From Polytrichum commune (taxonomy: Eukaryota; Streptophyta; Polytrichopsida; Polytrichales; Polytrichaceae), in contig OX485803.1 of NCBI GenBank assembly GCA_950295325.1, positions 44,221,554 to 44,285,553 on the forward strand: DNA of 64,000 bases, written 5' to 3'. The notes under the pieces are model-generated. The model saw only the letters and a program-made list of their open reading frames with translations. It was not told where the DNA came from and ran no database searches. Position 1 is the first letter of the stretch. Every line of letters begins with the position of its first letter. The translations under genes were made by a program, and so were the position numbers. This document shows, piece after piece, positions 12,576 through 62,600 of the stretch.

Positions 12576-12733
12576 CTCAAACTGACCATACTTAGTTTCA
12601 ACCTGCTCTAGTCTTCATACTACAGTTTGTTAAATACTACAACACTCAAAATTAAACGTGAAATTAATCCAAGAAGAAATCCATGTCACTATAATATACA
12701 TATTGTGGACATGCATGCAATAAACTTGTTGTA

Positions 12734-14466
12734 ATGGGTAGAAGCAGTTTGATCCTAGTTTTGCTAGTGCTGACACTAAGTTTGTCGTTGGTGAGTTCCC
12801 ATGCTCCGCATTCTTCACATGTGGAGTTTGTTAATCCGATCGATCTTGAATCGGAAAAAGGTCTGTCAATGTTGTTTGGAGCATGGACGAAGGTCCACAA
12901 CAAGAACTACAGCAACCACGACGAGAAGTCATTGAAATATTCAACCTTCAAAGAGAATGTGCAATTCATCAATGCGCACAACAAGAAAAACCATTCATTG
13001 AAGCTGGGCCTCAACAAGTTCACCGATCTGTCGACTGAAGAATACCGTGCTCAGTATTTGCGACTCAAAAACCCCCAAGGTGGTGTGATTCATGTGTTAC
13101 TTAGATAATAACAATTGTCAAGTTGGAGATAATTCTGGACTCATAATATGCTATTATACACATCACTATTATACATAATGTTGGAGGAAAGAAGTGAGGG
13201 GATAGAGAGAAGCTAACCAGTACATTTGAATGCGTTACACACAATTTGTATTATAGTATCATAAATTAAGTAACATACTGTAAATATCAACAGAAATCCC
13301 AACCTTTAGTAGATTAGGAAGCCCACAGTCGTAAATTTTTGGGGTTAGTATACATCATACAGCTTCCATTGATTGATTTGTAAGGTTATTCTAGACTCAC
13401 AATTGCACCAATTTTCATACTGATGGATTTGTTTTGGTATTCTCTACCATAGATTGACATCGATAGTTTGGAGATGTTGTACTGGTAACTAAATCCAAAG
13501 ACATAATCGTGGTATCCGTGTGTTGTAATCGCAGCCGGAGTTGCCGTCTCAAGGGAACAACTTGACACAGTTTACCAACGGGGCCTTGACGGTGAATTCA
13601 TCTCAAACTACAATCGATACGAAAACGTGAATCCACCTCCCGCCGTCGACTGGCGACTTGCCGGAGTCGTGACCCCCGTGAAAGATCAAGGCGCTTGCGG
13701 AAGTTGTTGGGCGTTTTCCGCTGCGGCAAACATCGAATGCATCAACGCGATTATCACGGGAACGCTAGTTTCCGTTTCCGAGCAACAACTGGTAGATTGC
13801 GATCGGTCCCCGAATGTGAACCAAGGTTGTAACGGTGGAGTGCAAGATTTGGCGCTTTCGTATGTCCGCGACAACGGTGGAATTGCGAGGGAAGACGACT
13901 ACCCATACATTGGTGGCGATGGAATCTCCTCCTCCTCCTCCACCTCCTCCACCTCATGTGTGAATTTGAAACGGTCGGTGACAATTGATGGGGTTTTGCA
14001 TGTTCCACATGCAAATGAGACCGCGTTGCTACAATCCGTTGCGAGCCAACCGGTTGGTGTTTCCATCGACTTTTCGAGCAAGTACTTCCAGAATTATAGG
14101 GGCGGTGTGGTCACCCTCGATTTGTTGGGAGCCGATTGTGGGAAAGGGGATTTGAACCACGCCGTCACCGTAATTGGGTATGGGTCGTCCAAGGATCTGG
14201 ACTATTGGATCATCAAAAATTCTTGGGGCGATGGGTGGGGTGAAGGAGGCTATTTTCGCCTACAACGGAACACAGGCGTTGCTCATGGTGTTTGCGGAGT
14301 GAATAGGTTTGGCCAATACGCGGTGAAAAATTGGAGTGTGATACCTGACTACAATTCGATAATTGCTCAAAGGAGCTCCACTTCGGCATCCGTCCCGTCC
14401 AAAATGGTGATGGTATGGTGGATGGCTTGCAACATCCTCATGTCTATAATTCTGTTGCACTTTTGA
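12734..14466 (+). CDS. Papain-like cysteine protease (C1A) preproprotein, 2 exons
   Basis: Exons 12734-13079 and 13535-14466 join in frame (split GCC codon) to give 425 residues. Domains: signal peptide with a hydrophobic Leu/Val core (1-23); I29 pro-inhibitor (about 45-115; ends with the [13 protein letters not shown] signature that keeps the zymogen inactive); mature peptidase from about PAVDWR (151). The oxyanion Gln lies in [13 protein letters not shown] (Gln167), catalytic Cys173, His324 in [11 protein letters not shown] and Asn344 in [11 protein letters not shown], so the enzyme looks intact. It should enter the secretory pathway and act in vacuole or apoplast. There is no granulin domain and no KDEL tail. 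Oddities: a Ser/Thr run (247-256) coded by a TCC-rich microsatellite, and a hydrophobic C-terminal tail after a Ser-rich linker, resembling a GPI signal or membrane anchor. Confidence 0.95.
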
Positions 14467-20082: not shown

Positions 20083-21190
20083 ACAATTATCTCACCCATT
20101 CTAAACCTGAACATGGAGGGAGCAAATCTGCCAACTGCTTTCACTGGCTTCTACAAAGTATTCTTGCAATTTAGTTTGCAGCAAATTCAATGGCAATGTA
20201 TCCGAGGTGCACAGATTGACAGCCTCTTCCATGGGGCAGAGAAATTTAGAAAAATGAAAGGCTACTTTGCCTTTAAAAATTAAGCTGCTCAAGAACTGAC
20301 AATACATACTTTCAATACCTTTACATTTTATCTCAACCATTCTAGAATAGAACATGTAGGGCACAAATCTGCCAACTGCTTTCACTAATTTCTACAGAGT
20401 GTTCTTGCAATTTATCTTGCACAGGAGCTGCAAATTCAGGGACAATAAACCCGAGGCCCACCGATAGATAGCCTCTTCCACGGGGCAGAGAAATTCAGAA
20501 TAAAGGAAGGCTACTATGCCTTCAAAATCAGGCTGCTCTGTGTAAGGATGTGCTTCCCCGAGTGATGGGTCAATCTTTTCGTCCAGAAGTATATGATGAC
20601 CAGAGCATGGAGGGAACAAATCCGCCAACTGCTTTCACCAAGTCTTTTTGAGATTCATCAGCAAAGTCAATGGTAAGATACCTAAGGTAGACTGGTGTTT
20701 ATCCAAAATCCCTGACCCAAAATGTGGACGCCTATGTTTCAATGGTGTGTGCTTAGGTGTGGATCTAAGAACAGACACCAAAAAGGCATCATGTGTTTGA
20801 AAGAATTTGGACTACATGCTCAAGATATAAGGTTATCCATTCTAGGCTGAATAGTTGCCATGATTGAGGGGGACCTGTGTTACCACTTAATGAGCACAAC
20901 AATCTTCACTTTAATGATGAATAAGATATATCATATGAGCTCCGAAAATAATAAGGAAAAGGGCTACAGGCACGATTTGGATTTGCTAATCATCACTTCA
21001 CAATAATTGCAATGTATTTCACATCCTACGAGAAGTGGGTGCAGAGAGAAGTGTCAAGTTAAGGATCACTCAGATTACCACCACGCAAATCAACAGCCTC
21101 CCACATGAGGCAGAGAAATTCAGAAAAATAGACAACTACTCTACTTTGCCTTCGAAAATCCATGCTGATCATCCTCACATATCTTCATCT
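20083..21190 (-). repeat. Degenerate tandem array with units of about 245 bp, including a copy of a gene end
   Basis: Units starting near 20083 and 20328 share 'CAAATCTGCCAACTGCTTTC', 'TTCTTGCAATTTA', 'AGCCTCTTCCA(T/C)GGGGCAG' and 'GGCTACT(T/A)TGCCTT'; a third begins near 20598 and a fragment with 'GGCAGAGAAATTCAGAAAA' lies at 21090-21160. Bases 20578-20602 nearly repeat 21818-21842, the last codons of the tail-anchored protein gene to the right (reading VIIYFWTKR on minus versus VIIYFWTRR). The array therefore looks like decayed duplications of that gene's 3' end and flank. A family E repeat (20738-21060) interrupts it. Confidence 0.6.
20738..21060 (+). repeat. Dispersed repeat family E, near full-length copy
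   Basis: Opens with 'TTAGGTGTGGATCTAAGAAC' and 'GACACCAAAAAGGCATCATG', continues with 'CATATGAGCTCCGAAAAT', 'GGGCTACAGGCACGATTTGG' and ends near 'CACATCCTACGAGAAGTGGG'. Copies with the same order lie at 21465-21760 and 50350-50662; partial ones at 47160-47390 and 55715-55860 on plus, and at 9217, 23545 and 49325 on minus. No coding frame or terminal inverted repeat was identified, so the class (SINE-like, MITE or solo-LTR fragment) is open. Confidence 0.7.
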
Positions 21191-21464
21191 TATGTCTGTG
21201 TAAGGATGGACTAGGTAACCCCCAAGGCCGGGAGTCTTGAGGCTGTTCCCAGAGATAACCGTTTGGAAACCATCTCCTTTAAGCCCTCCGATCATGTAGA
21301 TCTATGGCCTAGAATGATGGGGGGAGAACGAGGGTTTTGGTGCTCTAGGGAAGTCACCTCTTCCCTGATCGTATAACATCATCTCATGTGCCAAATAATT
21401 AAGGTAGTTGTGTCCAAATCCAGCATAGCAATACTCCGGACACCTATATGTAAGTAGTTTGTAG

Positions 21465-21760
21465 TTAGGTGAGGATCTAAGAACACAACCAAAAAGGCAT
21501 CATGTGTTTTGGAAGAAATTGGACTACGTGTTCCACATATTCTAACCATTCTAGGCTTAATATTCAACATCAGAATTGGGAGGGACCTGTATGCCCGCTT
21601 AATGAGAGCGAGGATCTTCACTTTGATAATGTACAAGATATTCATATGAGCTCCGGAAATTAAGAGGAAAATGGCTACGGGCATCACCAATTGGATTTGG
21701 TAAGTAATGATCTCGCAGTAATTGTGATGTCTTTCACATCCTACGAAAAGTGGGTGCTGA
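21465..21760 (+). repeat. Dispersed repeat family E, second near full-length copy
   Basis: It repeats 20738-21060 in the same orientation about 730 bases away ('AAAAAGGCATCATGTGTTTT', 'CATATGAGCTCCGGAAATTA', 'ATGGCTACGGGCA', 'TTTCACATCCTACGAAAAGT'). It ends about 45 bases from the stop codon of the minus-strand gene at 21806, so it probably lies in that gene's 3' UTR or just beyond. Confidence 0.7.
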
Positions 21761-21805
21761 GTGAAAAGTATCCAAATAACGGCCCTTACTTACGTGATAC
21801 CTAGC

Positions 21806-24758: not shown

Positions 24759-25778
24759 ATGCCTCAACTACCGGGTGACACATTTGTGTCACAAATTGCA
24801 AGCAATAGCATCCCAACAACCGATATGCACCAAACAGTCCCATCCGAAGGAGTTTCATATACCCAACAACTTACAAACGCTCATGATTCGCACGTCCACA
24901 ACAACAATGTAGTAGTCCAAGTTGGTGATCATCATCTCGTTGCGAATCCGCCGCCGCTAGTTGTTGCTCCTCACCGCGATTACAACACAAACAATTAGAG
25001 CGTTCACGAGATGCTTGTGTTGCAAGCCGCAAAGCTGGAGTTCGAGAGCAGCTTGAAAGCTCGAAACCATCGTCACCAGTGTCATAAGATTCGGGAGAAA
25101 GACGTCAAAATCTCATCAAAGGAGCGGTGGACGTGGATTGAGAACGCGTGCTGGAACGCCGGCGTTTTCCGGAGCCAAAAGCAGTGCCACGACAAGTGGG
25201 AGGGTGTCACTACCCAGTTCCGGAAGGTGGCGAGATTTAACGAGAAGATCAAGATCTTGAACAACAACAAGAACTCGGATTCATCGAACGTCGCGGAGGA
25301 TTATTGGAGCATGTCGCAGCTTGCTCGCAAGCAAAACAAGCTCCTTGCAGATTTCTCGAGAGAGGTGTTCAACGCGTTGCACAAAAACCATTTTGGAGGT
25401 GGTGGAGGAAGTGATCCGGCGTCGGATGATTCAACTTTGCGATTGAATTTCACGAGTAATCACCATGTCGATGGTGAAGATGACGCAGCCCGTGGTAGTA
25501 GTGCCCGTCCTCCCAACAAAAATAGGAAGTTGAAAACTAGAGACGAAGAAGGTCTCGAGGGTATCGCGGCTGCAATTGTAAGCGCCGTGGAAAGGGCGGA
25601 CGAGCGTCATAAAGAGCTCATGGAGTTTGAGCGAGCGAAGTTTGAGTTTGAGAAGGAGAAGCTCCATGGATTTGCGAACTTGGGGAATGGAGTCATGAAG
25701 GTGTTGATAAGCATCAACGAGGCGATCAGAGAGCGATTGCATAGCGATTGCGCAACGACCCACCATGGAAAGTCGTGA
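24759..25778 (+). pseudogene. Trihelix (GT-factor) DNA-binding protein with an in-frame TAG at codon 80
   Basis: One uninterrupted frame of 340 codons except for TAG at 24996-24998. Text before it is coding-like (Gln/Asn/His-rich, then PPPLVVAP); text after it is a trihelix domain: SVHEMLVLQAAKLE (helix 1), SSKERWTWIENACWNAGVFR (helix 2) and SQKQCHDKWEGVTTQFRKVA (helix 3), then a Trp-containing helix (DYWSMS), a basic NKNRKLK patch and a Glu/Lys-rich coiled coil (about 270-310). Trihelix proteins start helix 1 with a conserved Trp followed by Ser/Thr-x-x-Glu; here TAG occupies exactly that Trp position, one base from TGG. Either a recent nonsense mutation or base error, or a hidden intron ending at the TAG (TTAG|AGC). 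Initiation at the internal ATG (25011) would give a domain lacking its first turn. Confidence 0.75.
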
Positions 25779-25936: not shown

Positions 25937-27059
25937 GGGCCGGTTTACACTATGGACCATGAAGTCGGACCATGGAAGATGGCCTTTGTTCAAGTTTATG
26001 ATCCGACTTCCATGGTCCGACTTCATTAAAAATTAGTTTTGAGAGCCTTGGGCCCCTCACTAGGTGTAAAGCGAATGTGGACCAAGAAGAATGACCATGC
26101 ACCAAAAAGTGAAGGTGCTAATTTTTTTAAGTGAAGGTGCTCAAAAAGGGCAATTTTGAAAAAAAATTAAGTTTGATCATTCCTTGTCTTCTCTTGGGCT
26201 TCACTTGTCTTCACTTCTTGTTAAATGTGTTGAAGATGTGGTTTGCAAATCTTCTCACAAAAATTTTTACAAAAAAAATGGAGCAATTTAATTTGTACAT
26301 GTTCAATGTAATTTACATGTGACATGTACCTTGTGTTGTCACTACACTAAATAGGATATTTAGTGTTTGATTATATTTAATGTTGTTACCACCCTACCTT
26401 GCTCAACACTAATTTTCAATTCTTTGATAATTAGTGTTAGAAGATTTCCCATTGCACTTCTTTTGACTACCCTGATCTACAGTCACTAAACCACTACAGA
26501 TTTTTCTTTTTCTTTTTTCAACTTCATTTTTAAAATTTTTGGGGTATGTAATATACCGTTGGAAAGGTATTTTCAAGACCTTCCCAACGGTATATTACAA
26601 GCCCCAAAATTCCAAACATTGCATTTGGTAGACCAAAAAAACAAATCTGCACTTGAATTCTTGAGTTCTAGATGTCCCACGTTGTTTGGTGAAACACGTG
26701 TGAGCCGGTTTAAGGGGTAGGGAAATGTAATGCTGGTATGTCTCATGGGCTATGGTATAATTAAGGCACTTAAAAGGTAGATTCATTAAGGATTTATTGA
26801 AATGGTGTTTCTTTGACATGGGCCTTTGCCTTTTCCTACCTTACCACCTCTCTTGCCTCTCTCACCGCAAAACCCGTTGGACCATGTCAGTGCATTTATT
26901 AGGCCTTAAAAATTATATTTTGGGGACGTCGACCTCCATGGTCCCTCTGCCATTTTTTCCTTAGTGTAAACCGAAGTTGTCCCGGGAGAACTTCAACAGC
27001 CAATCAGCTGCCTTGCAGAGCTTTGGTCCAACTTCATGGTCCATAGTGTAAACCGGCCC
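25937..27059. mobile_element. PIF/Harbinger-like (Tourist-type) non-autonomous element, 1,123 bp
   Basis: Left end GGGCCGGTTTACACTATGGA (continuing to 25972) is repeated in reverse complement at 27024-27059; about 35 of 36 bases agree, with one difference at position 30. TAA flanks both sides (25934-25936 and 27060-27062), the target duplication expected of PIF/Harbinger elements. The interior has no transposase frame, but contains a sub-terminal palindrome (GAAGTCGGACCATGG and its complement near 26010-26025), a fragment of the family G repeat (26341-26445) and a strong hairpin at 26541-26605. The near-identical ends argue for recent insertion. Confidence 0.85.
26541..26605. repeat. 28 bp perfect-like hairpin inside the Harbinger-like element
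   Basis: Arms 26541-26568 and 26578-26605 pair at about 25 of 28 positions around a 9-base loop; the core stem includes GTAATATACCGTTGG. The flanking AATTTTT/AAAATT can extend the stem. It could be a small nested MITE or a small-RNA precursor; nothing in the sequence proves transcription. Confidence 0.65.
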
Positions 27060-27062
27060 TAA

Positions 27063-28263
27063 GAAAGGGAGTCGATGTGGAAGGTGGTATCAAAGTAGCA
27101 CTTTGGATGGATTTTGATTCATTTGATCTTGAACCAAAAAATGAAATAAAATTAGTATTGTCAATGAAAGACAAGGTTTACAGGCTTTGTTTTGATGGGA
27201 TGTCGGATTATGTGATTAGGAAGGAATCAAATGAGGTTTATGACTTCAATGAACATTTTTCTTTATAAAAACATGCAATGATTTGTGTAATCTTAATGTC
27301 GTTATGCTCAAAGCGTAATTATTAATTTAAACAAGCAACTTTGTTACGAGAGGTTGTGTCCTATTCAAAGCCTCTATCCTCTAAACACTCTGGTCTACAT
27401 TTCACCTCCTCCTCATATACTATGTTTTACTCTACTATAATCTTTTGTATTCACCCTACATTTCATTATCTAGTCCCTAAACCTGCTCAAGTGATGTTCC
27501 TGCAATGCTTCTACTTCAAGTTTAAGAAGGTCCATTAATTGTTTTTTGTAGATTTATCCAAGTTAGATAAGGGACTATAGTGCTCAAAGTGGATGTGATA
27601 AGTTAGGTGCTGCTTACCTTAGGTAAGTGTGGGTGAAGTGAATTAGTGTGGCGATGGAGGCTTACATTTTCATCCTCCATGGTCATCCCAATCACCTTCC
27701 CAACTACCAATGAGGTCACGACACGCGTCTCCATAACGCAATCCCCCGTCATAGAAATGTCCCTTTTCTTTGCAGTCGCTAAAGATTATTTCAATACAAT
27801 AATAACTCAGCTCGCCCTTCCAATCTTTCAAACTGCGATGCCGCTAAATTTCACCCGAGTTTTGACCAAAAATCTCTCTTCCTTCAACTGGTGGCAACAA
27901 TTTTATCAGCATTTCAAGCTTTTGATGTCACGGTGGATGCCAGTGTAATCTTCAGTAAGCACCGAACTTCCATCTCTATCGATGATTGGGCCAAATTTGT
28001 TTTTGAGGTTTGTGGGAATTATCTTGTGGGTAGGGTTTACTGGATGCTTGCTTTCAAAGCGGTCATGCTTACTGGTGGGAGACTACTCAAGAAGGTTGGT
28101 TGTGCATTGAATGCCTGCGAATGAAACATAAGCAATCAGGTCTTTTGAATTCTGATTTCATGGCTGCTCAGCACGTGTGTTTGTTGGGTGACATTGATAG
28201 CATGAAGAAATTGAAGTTGTGGGTGCAGGAATTTAGGCATGCCTTTGCAATTTGGTGAGTACT
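27063..28263. other. Spacer / 5' flank of the RNA polymerase gene
   Basis: Open frames at 27077-27268 (63 codons), 27646-27948 and 27891-28124 have no recognisable motif and no continuity. The stretch just before 28264 is probably the 5' leader of the polymerase gene. Confidence 0.35.
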
Positions 28264-31200
28264 ATGTGGAGGGCTGCGGCACGACATCTTTCAAAGCAAT
28301 GGCTTGATTCAAGGACTCACCAACCTCTTTCAGTTGTTACAAAAACTTTTGGGCTCTTTCGGAGGTCGTCATCAAGTTCAGCTGCTGCAGTGGTGGTGCA
28401 CGCCGAAGACAAATTTGACGAATTCCTCTTACCCTTTGGAAGCTCTATCTTGTCACAGCTCCAAACACCTCTCGAAGAAGTTTTGGACGCGGCACTTCTT
28501 ACGTGGCTGCCACCACAATCACCTGAACATGCATTAAATCCAAGGTTTGAATTGAGGTATGATGATAGAGGGTTCAGCTCTTTGGATCATAGTTATGCAT
28601 TTGCAAGTTCTGGCACCGAAGCAATTGAGCATGGCGAATATGAACATGAAGAAATTGAACTACATGGAAGTAGTGTGGTGGAGTCAGTTATCGAGAACTG
28701 TGAAAACCGTGAAACAGAATCTGAGGAGAAGGAAAATCTTGAGAGAAGAAATGTGCAGAAGAAGCGAGCTGCATTGTATAAGAGGCAGATGAAAATTGAG
28801 ACCGAGGCGTGGACGAATGCTGAAGCCGAATATAGATCTCTCATGGAAGAAATGTGTCGGAAAAAATTAGCCCCGAATCTACCGGCCGTTCAAATGATGC
28901 TTCTCGGATGGTATGAGCCCCTGAGGTATGTTTTTCACTTCTAGTGAGAGATTCAATCAGCTGTTTTTATTTTATTTTAAAAGAAGATTTTCTGATGGCT
29001 GCCATTTCTACTGTGCGTGATTCAAGAGGGCTACACCTATGTCGCCATTGAAGGGGCACTTTACACCACAGCTTGAGGGCCCGTGACCTTTGAAAACTAA
29101 AATTCTTTACCGGTGGAAAATGCCGAGCCCGTCCCAGTGTACTTTGCACTGGAGTTTGAGGGCCTTAAGAGACCAAGGAAGTTTGAATGGATGAACAAAA
29201 TTTACCTTGAGTCCTACATGGCGTGCAATGGACAATGTTTCATAGTCTACTGGATTTTGTGTCAGGCTTACCTCAAAAAGGTGGGTCTAACACAAAATTG
29301 GGAGAGCATAACACTTCAAAATTTCACAACCCTCATAACTTATTGTGTAGAAGGGCCCACATGAATAGGGTGGTAATGAATTAGCATTCAGTTGAGAGCC
29401 TGGTCACGTATGTGTTTACAGACACTTGAAGACCTGTGACTACAAAAATTCAATCTCATAATTTTGTTAATATGGCCTTTGGATGAGTTTCAAGGGCCTT
29501 TGCACTTCCATGGTCATAGTGTAAAGCAGCCCTTAGTGGGTGCAGATTCTTAAGTAACTTGGAAACCACTGGCACTATTTGTTGTGAAGATTATGTATTT
29601 CCCGGACAATTGTTCGCCAATTGACATGTCGCTTCACCTCATTATTAAACTGATCACATTTTGAGGTGCAGGGATGCAATTGCAGAGGAACAAAATTCTT
29701 ACTCAAAGATGGAGTTTCGAGAGATTCGATCGAGATATGGTCCATTCCTCCGTCAATTACCAGCGTCACAGCTAGCAGTAATTACAATGCACTCCTTGAT
29801 GGTTTTGCTTATGAGCAAACCGGAAAGGGACTGGGTAAAAGTGACTCAGGCCGCTCTTCACATTGGAGAAGCGGTTGAGCAAGAGGTGAGATTTCTTCAG
29901 CAACACTGATTATGGTAAACTGTGGGCCATACTATTGAGCTTATTTCCACAGTGAAAAGACGTTGGGATAATATTGGGGGTGCACACTATTTATGAATCT
30001 ACAGTATTTAACATCAAAGGTCCACATTTAAGGTTACAACATTTCTATAGGATTGAAAATAGTGGGCAATTGAAAGACTTTCAACCAAGGGGGAGGAGGT
30101 GGGTATGTCATGAGGGTGTGACAAGTGTGACAAGTGCACACAAATTTCTTGTGTAATGGTGTATGTTGTGGGTCACATTATTGACCTTATTTTCATGCTC
30201 ACAAAGACCATTCTAATGAACATGGCACACCAATTTTGATGCTACACTAAATCAAATGTTATTGGTAGTTACTAACTTCCATAGTAGTCAACACAAAGGT
30301 CCATGTTCTAGGTTACAATATTTCTACTGGATGAAAATATGGGACACCAGTTGCTAGTGTAGCAAGCCATGGGCGATAAGGTCATATTTTCTGAATGCTA
30401 CATTGTCCAAGTTAACTAACATTTGTTCTGATGCATCCAGATACGAATCAATAAGCTGCTGTATAGTAAGAAGAAAAAGAAGAAGGGCCCTGAGGGCAAC
30501 ATTATAAGTAGCCTTAATAGCACAAATGTTCAAGGAGTAAACATTGGAACCAAAGAAGAGCCAATAGAGAGCACTGAAGATTCTTTCAAGGATGTGAGGA
30601 GTTTAGCGACTAAACTACTGAAGCATAGAAAGCTGCACGCTGTGAATAGAATTTTGCGACAGGCAAGTGGGGAAGACCCCTGGGGTCCCTCTACATATGT
30701 GCAGGTAAGAGGCTAACTAATCTCATAATTGTTTGTCATTTCACATAATGCAACAGCATTAGAGTTATTCTTGAACTGAATGAAACTTTTGATTTGGATT
30801 TGGTTGTTTTACATACAAAACCTTCCATGTTTGGGAAGTTTTTGGTGTATGCTCGGAGGTGGGGTGGAGGTTTGTACAAAGAATATTTTATACAGGTTCA
30901 TTGAGGGTCGAACTTATTTTGGCATGCCCAGAGGTGCTAAATGAGTTTGGCCCTCAATTAACTAAAATAGGTTGCTCTTCATTCAAATTAAACACTACCT
31001 TTGAGCATGCATCACAAGTGGAAAGAAATCATGAATTTGGTATGAAAAACAACCAATCAAAAATCATATGGGGACCAACTCTTGATGAAAAGTCCCATTG
31101 AGTCCAAGGATGACTCAGTTATAGCATAATTTTCTCTTACAGTTGATTGTAGTTGCATGTGATTGACAATCTTATTGCACACCAACCTTCTTTTTTATGT

Positions 31201-34200
31201 AATCATCAAGTAGAAACGAAACATTTCTACAGGACTATGGAGGACGCGGATAGTGAGTAATTGTTCTGCATTTATTAAAGTTTTCAAGTATAGAGGCTCA
31301 TACTATCATAGAATGTTCTGTTCAGGTGGGCAGCCGTTTGTTGGAACTTCTTATCGAAACTTCGACTGTGCGAGTCCCTCCGAATTTGAGTGATGATGAT
31401 ACACCTCATCTTCAACCTGCATTTAAGCATACAATGAAATATTTACAAATTAAGAAAAGGTTTGCATATATCTACCTGTATCGTTATTCAACTCAAACAC
31501 AGAATCTTGTGGTGGTGCTCTCTGCACTCATACATACTACTTTTGGGGGTACCTTGTTACTGGCTACTTACAGAATGCTTTGAACCTCTATTTGTGAAAT
31601 TTGGATCCTTGCCAAATTGATCCTCTTTTTGTTATGCAGGTCGCCAAGACATCGGACTGGTGTAATAGAATGCAATCCTTTTGTCCTTCAAGACTTAGAG
31701 GAGTCTGTGAAATACATTGTGATGCCTTACATGCCCATGCTTGTGAAGCCCAAGCGTTGGAAAGGGTAAGAAATTCTCACTTTCCTCTCTTAGGTATTTC
31801 ATCAAAAATTATGATTCGGGTTGTATGGAATGAAATTTGATTCTTGTCATGCAGGATCCATTCAGGAGGTCATTTAGTTCTGAAATCTTCTATTATGAGA
31901 ACAAGAGGTTCTGAAGAACAGCTCGATACATTAAACAGCACTCCGCAGAAGAGTATGAGTAATGTTTTTAAGGTACTTTACTTGGCCCCTTAGTTCCTTC
32001 TTTCAGCAGGGTACTAGCAATAATAGCACTGATAAATATTATGTGAGACTGGTGGGGATGCTTTGTAAAATTTGGTCTTCTACATCTCACTAACTCTTTT
32101 TTATCTGTTTTGTCCCAGGCACTTGATGCTTTAGGAGAAACTAGATGGCGACTGAATATGCCAGTATTTGATGTCATAGAGCAGCTTTGGGAAGAAGGCG
32201 GAGGCATCGCAAACCTGGTTGATGCAAGTGATGTGAGTAAATCTGAGGAACTCTAAAAGTTAGAGTTATCCTTCAATTCACTGGGAATTTTGCGTTGGGA
32301 GTTAGTCCCCTATGATTCTCCATTTTTTTGCATACAATATCCACAAATTTCTTTCATTTGTGGTGTATGCTTAGAGGTAGTGTTTGAATTTGAATGGGGA
32401 GCAACCTATTTCAGTTCATTGAGGGCGAAACTCATTTTAGCAACTCTTGGCATGCCAAAATGGGTTGACCCTCAATGAACTGATGTAGAATGTTTTTTGC
32501 TCAAACCTCCACACTACTGAAAACTTACCAAACCTGGAAGGCGGTGTTTGCAAAACAACCAACTCCTGACCAAAAGTCCCATTGAGTTGAAGGATAGTTC
32601 TATTGTCATTGAAGTATTTTATTTTCATATATGCAGTATGTCTATGCATGTCACAGCTAGTTTTGAGTTGTCTTGCAATCTGCATGTAGGGAGATATTTC
32701 TGGAATTTCTACAATCATTTTTTGTAGACAGTATCCTCAACCCAGGTTACCAAGCTGTTTGAGTGATAGTCAACAACACTTTTGCATTCTGATTTCAGCA
32801 CCAGCTTCATTTGAAAAGACTACATCTGTCAGTAATTTGCTGTCTGTGTTATTTGCAAAGGTCCCATTGCCAGAAGAACCTGAAAAAGAGAATGCAGATG
32901 TGTGGAAGAGTTGGAAAAGGGAATTAAGACTTGCTAGAGCCACCAACCATGAAAGGCACTCTTTGCGCTGTGATGTCAATCTCAAGCTTTCTGTAAGTCA
33001 ATTGTCTTCTCCTTTTGCTCATTTAGCCCTTAAAAAGGATCCGGTTGTGTTTATATGGAATACATGACAATTTATACGAACCTCCAACAAGTATTGAAAT
33101 GATATTTTATTTGGTCTATGGGATTGAATCCATATTTATTTGCACAACCTATCAAAACGAGGAAGTGAATTTAAAGTCATGTGTGACAACAGTGATTAGA
33201 CCTACATTGTAAGTATTTGAGTCTAGGTCATTTATACGAGCTCAAATCTATATATAATTCAATTTACATGTACATATTCTTTGATTGGAATAATGCATAT
33301 GATAAATGGAAGAACTCTAGATAGGGTCTCTTTTAACACATCTTGCTAAAAATATCAAGTAAACTTAAACCCCTCCGTATGACACCTTGAGGCCCACTAT
33401 GGGCCTTTTGGACCTTTAGGGCTTAACACAGCAATGTTAAATGGACATTCTAATTTGCTCCACTTCCAATTGATGCATCATTCAAAAATTGCAGACAGAT
33501 GACTGTAGGTGTACACCTTTGTGTAAGTTAAATTAGTTACTCCTAACAAAGTAATTGTGTGGTTTGGGGTTTGTGGATTGACTGTAGGTTGCACGAAAAC
33601 TAAGAGGTGAAGAATTTTTCTATCCTCACAATCTGGATTTTCGTGGAAGGGCTTATCCAATGCACCCAAACTTGAACCACTTGGGATCGGATTTGTGTCG
33701 AGGGATGCTCGAATTTGCCGAGGGCAGGCCACTGGGTCTGACCGGGCTCCGCTGGCTTAAAATACAGCTTGCAAATCTCTTTGGAGGTTCTATTAGTAAA
33801 TTGTCTTTTGATGGCCGAGTCGCGCATATCGACAATTGTATGGACCAAGTTTTTGAGTCGGCTGAGCGACCTTTGGACGGGAGCCGGTGGTGGATCAAGG
33901 CAGAGGATCCTTTCCAGTTCCTAGCTGCCTGCATGGAAGTTCGAAATGCGATAAAGTCAGGCAGCCCTGAAACCTACATTTCATTTTTACCAGTTCATCA
34001 GGTAACATCCCACTTCTCCAGATGTCTTAATTTTTCTTTGAAATTACACCAGTAGTGTATTGCATGATTATATTATGTAAAAATGTATCTTTTTTATACT
34101 ATATCTATGTTAAATGGTATGTGGCATAGTTTATGTATAATTATAATTATGTGGCATACAATAGATGAATATATGAAAATAATGTTATTATTATGACATC

Positions 34201-53800: not shown

Positions 53801-54970
53801 TTCTTCAGGATGATTGTAACTACTTATACTTACCCTGACTTATTTTGTATTTTTTCCTTCAAATGGCTAAGACATTCTGGAGGATTATAACATTCATAAA
53901 ATATGGCAATATAGCCGAGGGGAAAATGATTAAAAAGTCATATTGTATGTCACATGCTGGCATTCGGCACATGTTAGCCAGGAAGAAGGATGTTGAAGGG
54001 CAATCTGGAAGGGAGAAAATACTGCAACAAAGATCAATTTACATAAACACTCTTAACACAGAATGTCACGAGTCTCATACTGTGAAGAACAATAGAATGG
54101 TGACAGAGGCAGCTGCTTACTATATTTCTCAGCAATTTGTGCTTAATGTTACCAACCAGGGGCCTGAGATCACTACAGTACACCAAATTTGTCCTATTAG
54201 TGTGGGCCACAGTAATTCTCTTGAAACCACATTAATTTTCAACCCATGCCAAACTCTAGTTTTAAATTAGTGTGGGCCATATTAATTGTCCTAGGAAATT
54301 GATGTGGGTCACTATTTTATCTTATGCTACTTTTGTCCTTGAGCTAATACTCAAAGGTGTTTGGGTGGAAGTCTCCAGGAAGACTTTGAGGAAGATCTGG
54401 GTCTTCAGCCCACAATTTCCACCTGACTAGACAATTAGTGTGGCCCACACTAATTTTTTCTCCCCACACTAATAGGGCTATTTGTTGTGCTCATTACTCC
54501 ATATGCATCTTCCATTTTGTTATCAGTTTTTCATTGACCCAACTGTGCAATCATGTCCAGGGAGCATCCTCACCATCCGAGATGTACTAATGAAGGCAGT
54601 TCCACACCTCTTCACTGCGGAGAACACCCAGGAAACATCACCAGGTCTGAAAGAAGGAATGCGTACCCTGGCAATAGATGAAGCAACAGCTGGGCCAGAA
54701 ATTGATGGAACAAGCAATGATAAAGTTGGGAGGTCAGATGCTGCAGAGATCTCTCAATGTATTTCAGAGGCAGACAAGAGTACAAACCCGAGGGTAGAGG
54801 ACACTGACAGTGCAGTTGGGGAATTGGATGATCCTAGTTTTGAGGGGATCATTCGGATACAGGGGATTGAGCCCAACCTTGATTTGCCTCTTGAGTGGGT
54901 TGCGAGAAACCTCTGTGGGCCAGAACATTTCATTCATGTAATTGTAATTTCAACATGCCCAACACATTAA
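50813..54970 (+). CDS. ATG5: Autophagy protein ATG5, 8 exons
   Basis: ATG5 is covalently joined to ATG12 and, with ATG16, acts as the E3-like complex that lipidates ATG8 on growing autophagosomes. Exons: 50813-50983, 51565-51695, 51957-52023, 52310-52396, 52651-52738, 52984-53118, 53643-53789, 54561-54970; all keep frame with GT-AG borders: 411 residues, longer than the ~337 of Arabidopsis. Diagnostic stretches: VWSGAVPVQIRPHPSE, LLAPRNGYLPSL, TIWFDYQGLPLKWYIPTGVL, LLVAEPERPWNLTVHF, the ATG12 acceptor lysine Lys151 in NALKEASYV, MNMSQLDQVELW, GRPGRIPVRVYVRTVD and the C-terminal IRIQGIEPNLDLPLEWVARN. The extra length lies in an N-terminal Arg/Gln-rich leader, an Ala/Ser loop and an acidic linker before the last ubiquitin-fold segment. 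The start is the first ATG after the leader. Confidence 0.96.
54187..54485. mobile_element. Small inverted-repeat element in ATG5 intron 7
   Basis: Begins CCTATTAGTGTGGGCCAC (54193) and ends with the complement of CCTATTAGTGTGGGG (about 54462-54476), 14 matching terminal bases. ATTTGT stands on both sides (54187-54192 and 54480-54485), a possible 6-base target duplication. 'TTAGTGTGGGCCA' recurs internally. About 285 bp, non-coding. Confidence 0.55.
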
Positions 54971-59679: not shown

Positions 59680-62600
59680 ATGGAGGATGATACCTACAGC
59701 ATTTCATCATCTGTGATCGTGGTAGTACTCTTTCCATCAAAGTGTTTGATTATCTTCCTTTCAAAAAAAAAAAATCTCAAAACATATCGTAATTTGTAAC
59801 TTGTGTAACGAGTTTATTTCATGTTACCCCCTTTACAAATCGCATTCTAGATATTAAACATTTTTGCCACGAAAGAGGATTTGACTAATATTTTGATAAA
59901 TTTTGGTCACGGTTATGTGGGAGATCAGGGGCATTCAAGCAAGGTAAAAAACGTGGACGATTGGTTGCCCGTAACAGGAAACCGAAATGCTAGTTGGTGG
60001 TATGCAACGTTTCACAATGTTACGGCCATGGTGGGTGCTGGAGTTTTGGGCTTGCCGAATGCTATGGTGTACATGACTTGGTCGGTCTCTTTCTTTTCTC
60101 TTTCAACCACTTACTCTTGTGAATCAACTACAATCTCCGTACCTTCACAATCCATAACATCACTCAACATTCATTGCTTCTATAAACCTTCTAAATATAA
60201 TAATAAGATGCTCGAAAATCTGTAGAAAGAGACTCAAATTCAGACTGAGCTCCCAGCATCCCTTATTGCATCCCGAAGGCCCGCATCGATGGTTACTGAT
60301 ATGTTAGTTGTGCACGTAAACAGTATTCTTCAGACCTTTGATCACGTTTTCTCCTAGTGTTATGAGTATAATAAGTTTCGTGAATTGGTGTAATATGTAG
60401 GGGTCCGGGAGTGGTGGTGCTCATCCTATCGTGGTGTATCACGTTGTACACGCTTTGGCAAATGGTCGAAATGCACGAAATGATTCCCGGGAAAAGATTC
60501 GACCGGTACCATGAGCTTGGGCAAGAGGCCTTTGGTGAGAAATTGGGGTTGTGGATCGTCGTTCCTCAACAATTGCTTGTGGAAGTGAGTGTGGATATTG
60601 TGTATATGGTGACGGGTGGAAATAGCATCCAAAAATTGTACAATCTTTATTGCACACGTTCTTGTCCACTCGCCACACACAAATCAATATGGATAGCGAT
60701 TTTTGGTTCGGTGCACCTCTTTCTTTCACAACTCCCCAATTTCAACTCCATTTCAGGCATTTCTTTGGCTGCGGCGATTATGTCTCTAAGGTTTGTTCAA
60801 TGTTTTTACTTCAAGTTTTTTGTTGTATCGATGAGGTTTTCTCGCTATGTTTACTTACCCTTGATTATCGTTTGATTTGAGAATAATACGTTTCGTATTG
60901 ATTGATACCACGTGTATAACCGATGTAGAGATATCATGATGTCTATCTAGCGATATCAGTTTACTTTAAATGAAGAGTTATTGAAGTTTGGATGTTTGTC
61001 TGTGCAGTTACTCTACAATTGGATGGATGATTCCAGCGGTTCATGGTCACAGTTCGCCACCATTGTTACCCAATGAATATCCAGACTATCATCTACCGAA
61101 TACCACGACACCCAATCTTGTGTTTGGGCTGTTCAATGCCCTTGGTTCTGTGGCATTTGCGTACGCAGGGCATAATGTGGTGTTGGAGATTCAAGCAACC
61201 ATACCCTCGACAAAAGAACGACCTTCCAAGGTGCCTATGTGGCGAGGGGTGGTGTTGGCCTACATAATCGTTGCATTGTGTTACTTCCCGGTGGCTTTTG
61301 TGGGCTATTGGGCATACGGAAATCATGTGGGTGAAAACATTGTGATCTACGCGGCAAATCCTAAATGGGCCGTGTTTCTTGCCAACTTGATGGTGGTCAT
61401 TCACGTCATCGGAAGTTATCAAGTGAGACCCATCCCTTGTATTTTGATTCAAGGCGCCTTGCTTGTTGGCTATGATTTTCAATCATGAAATTGAGTACCA
61501 TGACCTCAAGTTATAATGTAAAGGTGTATTCTTTCGAATATCTAAATGGTTGTATCAATTGTGACAGATTTATGCAATGCCTGTATTTGATATGTTGGAG
61601 ACGTTGTTGGTAAAGAAATGCAAGTTCGAACCTTCATTAATGCTTCGCCTAGTCACTCGCTCCCTCTATGTTGGTACATATCCAATTTTTTTACCATATC
61701 GTGTATATAATTTATTAAATAAAAAATTTATGTTTTGTATGTATTATGTAAACTAGTGAATAGATAAAGCGGAGTTGAAGCATTCTTATATTTTTTAATA
61801 TTTGTTTACTACTTTAACAATTTATTTGATCATCGTAATTGCATAAGTTTTTTGTTTACTTCAACATGACCAAAACAAATTGCTTTATGAGAGTGTTGAA
61901 ATTGTACTCAAGCCTCAAAAATTATATGAAAGTTGCACGTCTTTCACAACTTTCATGTCCGTGATCTTGACAAGCTTGTGCAATTTAAATGCAGTTTTCA
62001 CAGCATTTGTTGGAATAACACTTCCATTTTGGGGAGCATTGCTTGGGTTCTTTGGAGGCTTTGCCTTTGCTCCTACAACCTACTTTGTAAGTACTTCTTA
62101 TTAAATATTATTGAATTTAGTTCAATGTGTACATTTAGTTTTAAAACATTGTTATTGTTTTCAAAAACTTATTACATTACGTTTTTGTATTATACAGTTA
62201 CCTTGTATCATGTGGCTATGCATCTGCAAACCAAAGCCATTTGGAAGGGAATGGTTACTAAATTGGGTACAAAACTCACCCTTTGTACATTTCTCTTTAT
62301 GTTTGATAATGTATTGATTTGCATGTGTTAGGCCATGCTTTGCTTTAAAAAAAATTAAAAGGAAAATCAACTACACTAGTTCAGTGTGGTGGACAACAAT
62401 CATCATCTATCCTTGACATAACATTACTTAGCTAATGAGCTGTGTTCAGCTACCTTGACTCCAGATTCAGTCTAAAGCACTAGGATTCCAACATCCGGAG
62501 GTTTTATTCTCGAATCTACTATAGGGTCCATGAACACAACTCATTAGTTGAGTAATGTTATGGACCTTAGAAAGTTGTTTTAAGAGGAAGAAAATAACTT

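Follow-up and report, generated by a model that had tools for sequence, protein, structure and literature searches.

The window analysed here, a stretch of 64,000 nucleotides (64 kb) of Polytrichum commune DNA, contains on its forward strand a reading frame of 339 codons (24759-25775) that has one internal stop codon and ends with a TGA at 25776-25778. The earlier note on this DNA described a single TAG with 79 open codons before it and 259 after it, and we confirmed this arrangement on the frame 24759-25778. The features of the frame are collected in Table 1. Dinucleotide shuffles of the same DNA have a mean of 12.6 stops, and not one of 2000 shuffles contained one stop or fewer; the remaining five frames of this DNA hold between 8 and 21 stops each. 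With one stop against 12.6 expected, a chance origin is unlikely and the frame is that of a gene or gene remnant.

Table 1. Features of the interrupted frame and of the domain that it carries.
Feature	Coordinates	Strand	Basis or remark
5' part of the frame, 79 codons from ATG 24759	24759..24995	+	Probable N-terminal part of the gene
PF13837 (trihelix domain) match with the stop read as Trp	24990..25238	+	Residues 78-160; profile positions 2-72 of 89
In-frame TAG, residue 80, at the place of the first conserved trihelix Trp	24996..24998	+	Frame and Pfam profile
259 codons plus TGA: remaining trihelix domain and C-terminal part	24999..25778	+	ORF, Pfam
ATG in frame at the fifth codon past the stop, from which a truncated protein of 255 residues might start	25011..25013	+	ORF, Pfam (27.2 bits against a cut-off of 27)
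Long fourth helix, predicted, residues 175-212	25281..25394	+	Low-confidence models
Long C-terminal helix, predicted, residues 263-335	25545..25763	+	Low-confidence model

Taken alone, the 5' part of the frame is weaker, with 153 of 2000 shuffles equally free of stops, and a Pfam scan of its 79 residues gave no match. Codon usage, scored after training on six other open exons within the window, did not set it apart either: among 3000 stretches presumed to be non-coding, a fraction of 0.355 reached as high a score, and the score also missed the correct frame of the downstream part. In our view the 79 upstream codons are the probable N-terminal coding part of the gene, although neither the shuffles nor the codon usage prove that they are coding. 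The G+C content is 46.4% before the stop (39.2% at third positions) and 50.6% in the downstream ORF (61.9% at third positions), compared with 31.4 and 38.7% in the two flanks that were measured and 39.9% in the window as a whole, which has no N.

Searching the window with the frame (tblastn) returned the self-match only, with no second copy or paralogue, and no Rfam family matched the window at its gathering score. Upstream of the gene there is a diverged direct duplication (20726-21765) consisting of five pieces with a spacing of 711-715 bases and 75-86% identity. Two inverted repeats lie downstream. The first, at 25959-26026 and about 180 bases past the final stop, is a perfect repeat of 20 bases with 28 bases between its arms; the second, at 26497-26649 and about 720 bases past the final stop, has arms of 75 bases that are 75% complementary around a 3-base spacer, and is possibly a mobile element of the small hairpin type. 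In a Pfam comparison of nine other ORFs from the window, seven had a match at an E-value of 0.001 or better. They include a papain-type cysteine protease (12695-14466), whose propeptide and catalytic domains are found in two adjacent open frames that are probably two exons of one gene, and a phage-type RNA polymerase in two open frames downstream of the trihelix gene (28237-34055), the N-terminal match of which, at 28.9 bits, falls slightly short of the 30.1-bit cut-off. The autophagy protein ATG5 is matched by one ORF (54476-54970), and an amino-acid transporter by two frames (60384-61488).

The trihelix domain named in the earlier note holds, as the downstream ORF alone matches PF13837 (Myb_DNA-bind_4, trihelix) with 27.1 bits, a borderline value against the curated cut-off of 27. 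The ORF that begins at ATG 25011 is likewise narrowly above it at 27.2 bits, and the full frame with the stop read as X falls just under it at 26.4 bits. A scan of NCBIfam matched no family. Further family characters were found in the second and third helices, where the Trp of helix 2 and the Cys and Trp of helix 3 are aligned with those of GT-1 in weak phmmer matches. Inspected by eye, residues 181-188 (DYWSMSQL) fit three of the four anchor positions of the fourth-helix motif (F/Y)-(F/Y)-x-x-(L/I/M)-x-x-(L/I/M) (PMC4195496). The helix-1 Trp is absent as sequenced, the stop standing where the profile fits a Trp. The gene is a trihelix relative by descent that, as sequenced, cannot encode a complete domain.

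The closest comparison among solved structures is with the DNA-binding domain of GT-1 (PDB entries 2ebi and 2jmw), with which the protein aligns over helices 2 and 3, including the helix-2 Trp and the Cys and Asp-Lys-Trp of helix 3. The match is weak, however, and helix 1 is unaligned: phmmer gave E-values of 0.15 and 0.16 for the downstream ORF, for which an unrelated kinesin chain ranks higher (0.082), and 0.03 for a 107-residue piece. Two AlphaFold models built without an alignment were poor, with mean pLDDT values of 43.9 and 54.8, and both begin helix 1 at residue 82 with low confidence. A Foldseek search with the second model gave 377 matches at E-values of 10 or less, none of them at 0.001 or better, and GT-1 was absent from the best 50 of the 377. 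We therefore used the predicted structure for helix positions only. Scans of viral and of prokaryote genome contigs with the downstream ORF gave five stretches and ten matches, respectively, that fitted a pattern, of which none was confirmed; this is expected for a plant gene. Trihelix proteins have been described as plant-only (PMC5526864), on which ground the window is taken as plant DNA.

Perhaps the gene can be placed more closely, in the SH4 type. The residues flanking the stop may resemble the helix-1 region of Arabidopsis At1g31310, an intact gene, and we treat this likeness as a lead towards a putative SH4-like placement. At1g31310 is listed under SH4 in PMC5526864, and is called SH4-like2 in a legend of PMC4165759, the main text of which names the same locus as a hydroxyproline-rich glycoprotein family gene. 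SH4 itself is classed as a trihelix protein (PMC6358761).

The stop was also claimed to fall exactly on the first conserved Trp of the domain. This Trp of helix 1 is described as invariant in almost all of the family members compared (PMC7075366), and a Trp in each repeat is given as typical of trihelix proteins (PMC4195496, PMC6358761). TAG is indeed one base from TGG, as had been pointed out. We compared readings of the stop as X and as each of the seven amino acids that are one base from TAG (Gln, Lys, Glu, Ser, Leu, Tyr and Trp). With Trp the PF13837 match scores 28.3 bits and starts at profile position 2, while the seven other readings score 26.4-26.8 bits and start at position 24 or 26; Trp is thus the only one of the eight that extends the match to the start of the profile, for a modest gain. 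The same was seen with a 113-residue piece, in which Trp at the site gave 33.5 bits and an extended match, compared with 29.6 for X and 30.9 for Phe, neither of which gave an extension. When the Trp was shifted to seven nearby positions the scores were 28.9-29.8 bits and no match was extended, so that the Pfam profile fits a Trp at exactly the site of the stop. Comparison with solved chains did not repeat this effect: phmmer gave the same GT-1 alignment and near-identical E-values with X and with Trp. The claim is accordingly upheld by the Pfam profile (28.3 bits and the extension) but not by phmmer against GT-1. Mutational opportunity does not favour Trp either, its share of the TAG-making changes in the frame being 0.215, the same as that of Glu; the case for Trp rests on the profile for this reason.

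In our view, the most consistent interpretation, to which we give a probability of about 60%, is that this is a naturally broken copy of a trihelix gene, either a segregating null allele or a young pseudogene, in a frame that is otherwise uninterrupted. We infer from the sequence that the ancestral codon was Trp; the gene would have been intact in an ancestor until one base change at the first conserved Trp produced TAG. Translation would then end after 79 residues, without the DNA-binding domain. At least 780 bases, up to the old stop, would be left untranslated and would expose the mRNA to nonsense-mediated decay, a long 3' untranslated region being among the features that are predicted to attract it (PMC11062462). 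In all likelihood no working protein can come from the present copy, and, as far as its sequence indicates, it most likely does nothing useful. The case looks ordinary, unless other individuals differ.

The main rival to a nonsense allele is a base-call or assembly error, in which event the real gene would be intact and would encode a normal trihelix protein. The remaining frame is undamaged, as it would be in a living gene, and we give this explanation an appreciable, though minor, chance. Few false nonsense changes would be expected, however: about 0.004 in the frame if one consensus base in 10,000 is wrong, and about 0.04 if one in 1,000 is. Furthermore, seven of the nine other ORFs scanned had domain matches without an internal stop, which is a weak control because these ORFs were chosen as open frames.

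If the lesion is a genuine nonsense mutation, its age is less narrowly constrained than the earlier note proposed: 'very recent' is too strong, since under assumed rates a neutral frame stays clean for some 1-8 million years. Of the 3042 possible single changes in the frame, 126 create a stop. With rates, transition bias and indel ratios all assumed, the mean wait for the next nonsense or frameshift change in a neutral frame of 1017 bases is 0.96-1.78 million years at 7e-9 per site per year and 4.5-8.3 million years at 1.5e-9, and the 95% limits are threefold longer than these means. With so long a neutral wait, the clean state of the remaining frame is no proof of a very recent event.

A hidden intron ending at TTAG had also been put forward, which would splice the TAG out of the transcript. 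The frame offers 93 frame-keeping GT-AG pairs (among 14 donors and 14 acceptors, for introns of at least 60 bases), including a 78-base intron at 24921-24998, and soybean genes of the SH4 subfamily are reported with two to four exons (PMC7075366). The site scores speak against it, however. No pair exceeds a summed score of -3.2 bits; among the AGs in the window the acceptor at 24998 stands at the 30th percentile, and among the GTs the donor at 24921 stands at the 88th. Removal of 24921-24998 would also leave no Trp ahead of the Ser. Over about 8 kb upstream, 11 exons were found that end in TGG before GT or GC, of which three have an upstream in-frame ATG; two of the three lie inside a diverged repeat and the other has a GC donor, so that the exons able to supply the Trp are not credible. 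This test is rough: on the protease intron, the splice matrices picked out an acceptor (2.2), whereas no donor there scored above 2. With an acceptor this poor and no credible source of the Trp, the intron is weakly supported and we consider it very improbable.

Programmed readthrough of the UAG, the further suggestion, is disfavoured and strikes us as extremely improbable. The stop is flanked by T and A, and A or U at these places is enriched among the Arabidopsis cases in PMC11062462. Against this, the AGCGTT that follows the stop does not fit the CARYYA context and UGA is the codon preferred in Arabidopsis (both PMC11062462), and AGCGTT fits none of the three viral leaky types in PMC2754532. 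In the latter study, readthrough of UAG in the leaky TMV context inserted Tyr alone in planta, not Trp, and Tyr at the present stop gave no extension of the domain match.

Alternatively, ribosomes might start at ATG 25011, either directly or by re-initiating past the 79-codon frame, and make a protein that lacks the first Trp but still functions, for example by binding partners and not DNA. This ATG is in frame, has G at position -3 and opens an ORF that reaches the Pfam cut-off. Ribosomes do not usually re-initiate efficiently after so long a frame (79 codons), however, and a protein starting at residue 85 would lose the Trp together with the first residues of the predicted helix 1. In favour of a functional product, HRA1, another trihelix protein, could still repress RAP2.12 activity when its trihelix domain was missing (PMC4165759). 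On balance we think a functional product from 25011 improbable. More doubtful still is a form of this idea in which the stop is fixed in the species and the gene persists in two parts, the 79-codon frame acting as a control on translation and the ORF from 25011 encoding a shortened trihelix protein that lacks the helix-1 Trp and binds partners in place of DNA. We note that the ORF 25011-25778, in reaching the Pfam cut-off, is a trap for annotation, as it could be recorded as an intact trihelix gene.

As a nonsense allele or a young pseudogene, the present locus would be one more case of something common in plants, where broken alleles abound: 7546 genes with disruptive mutations are reported over 80 Arabidopsis accessions (PMC3521719), and 91,751 loss-of-function variants are given in PMC13089410. 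Among the papers surveyed on premature stops, nonsense mutations and pseudogenes of trihelix genes, we found no description that matches this locus. Two known cases resemble it. In maize sh2008, ZmThx20 is a trihelix gene with a natural premature stop, which differs in that the gene is of the GT-2 type, the lesion is a one-base deletion and a kernel phenotype has been shown (PMC8624104). In African rice, GL4, the SH4 orthologue, has a single-base premature stop in exon 1 (PMC7790969, PMC6211083) and is thus like the present locus in being a natural single-base stop, there in an SH4 gene; it differs in that the C/T change is linked to seed size and shattering and was selected in domestication, without being fixed. 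If the stop reported here is real, it adds to the natural loss-of-function alleles known from trihelix regulators. Should the putative SH4-type placement also hold, the allele could be tied to a trait by a population study, as in the case of GL4.
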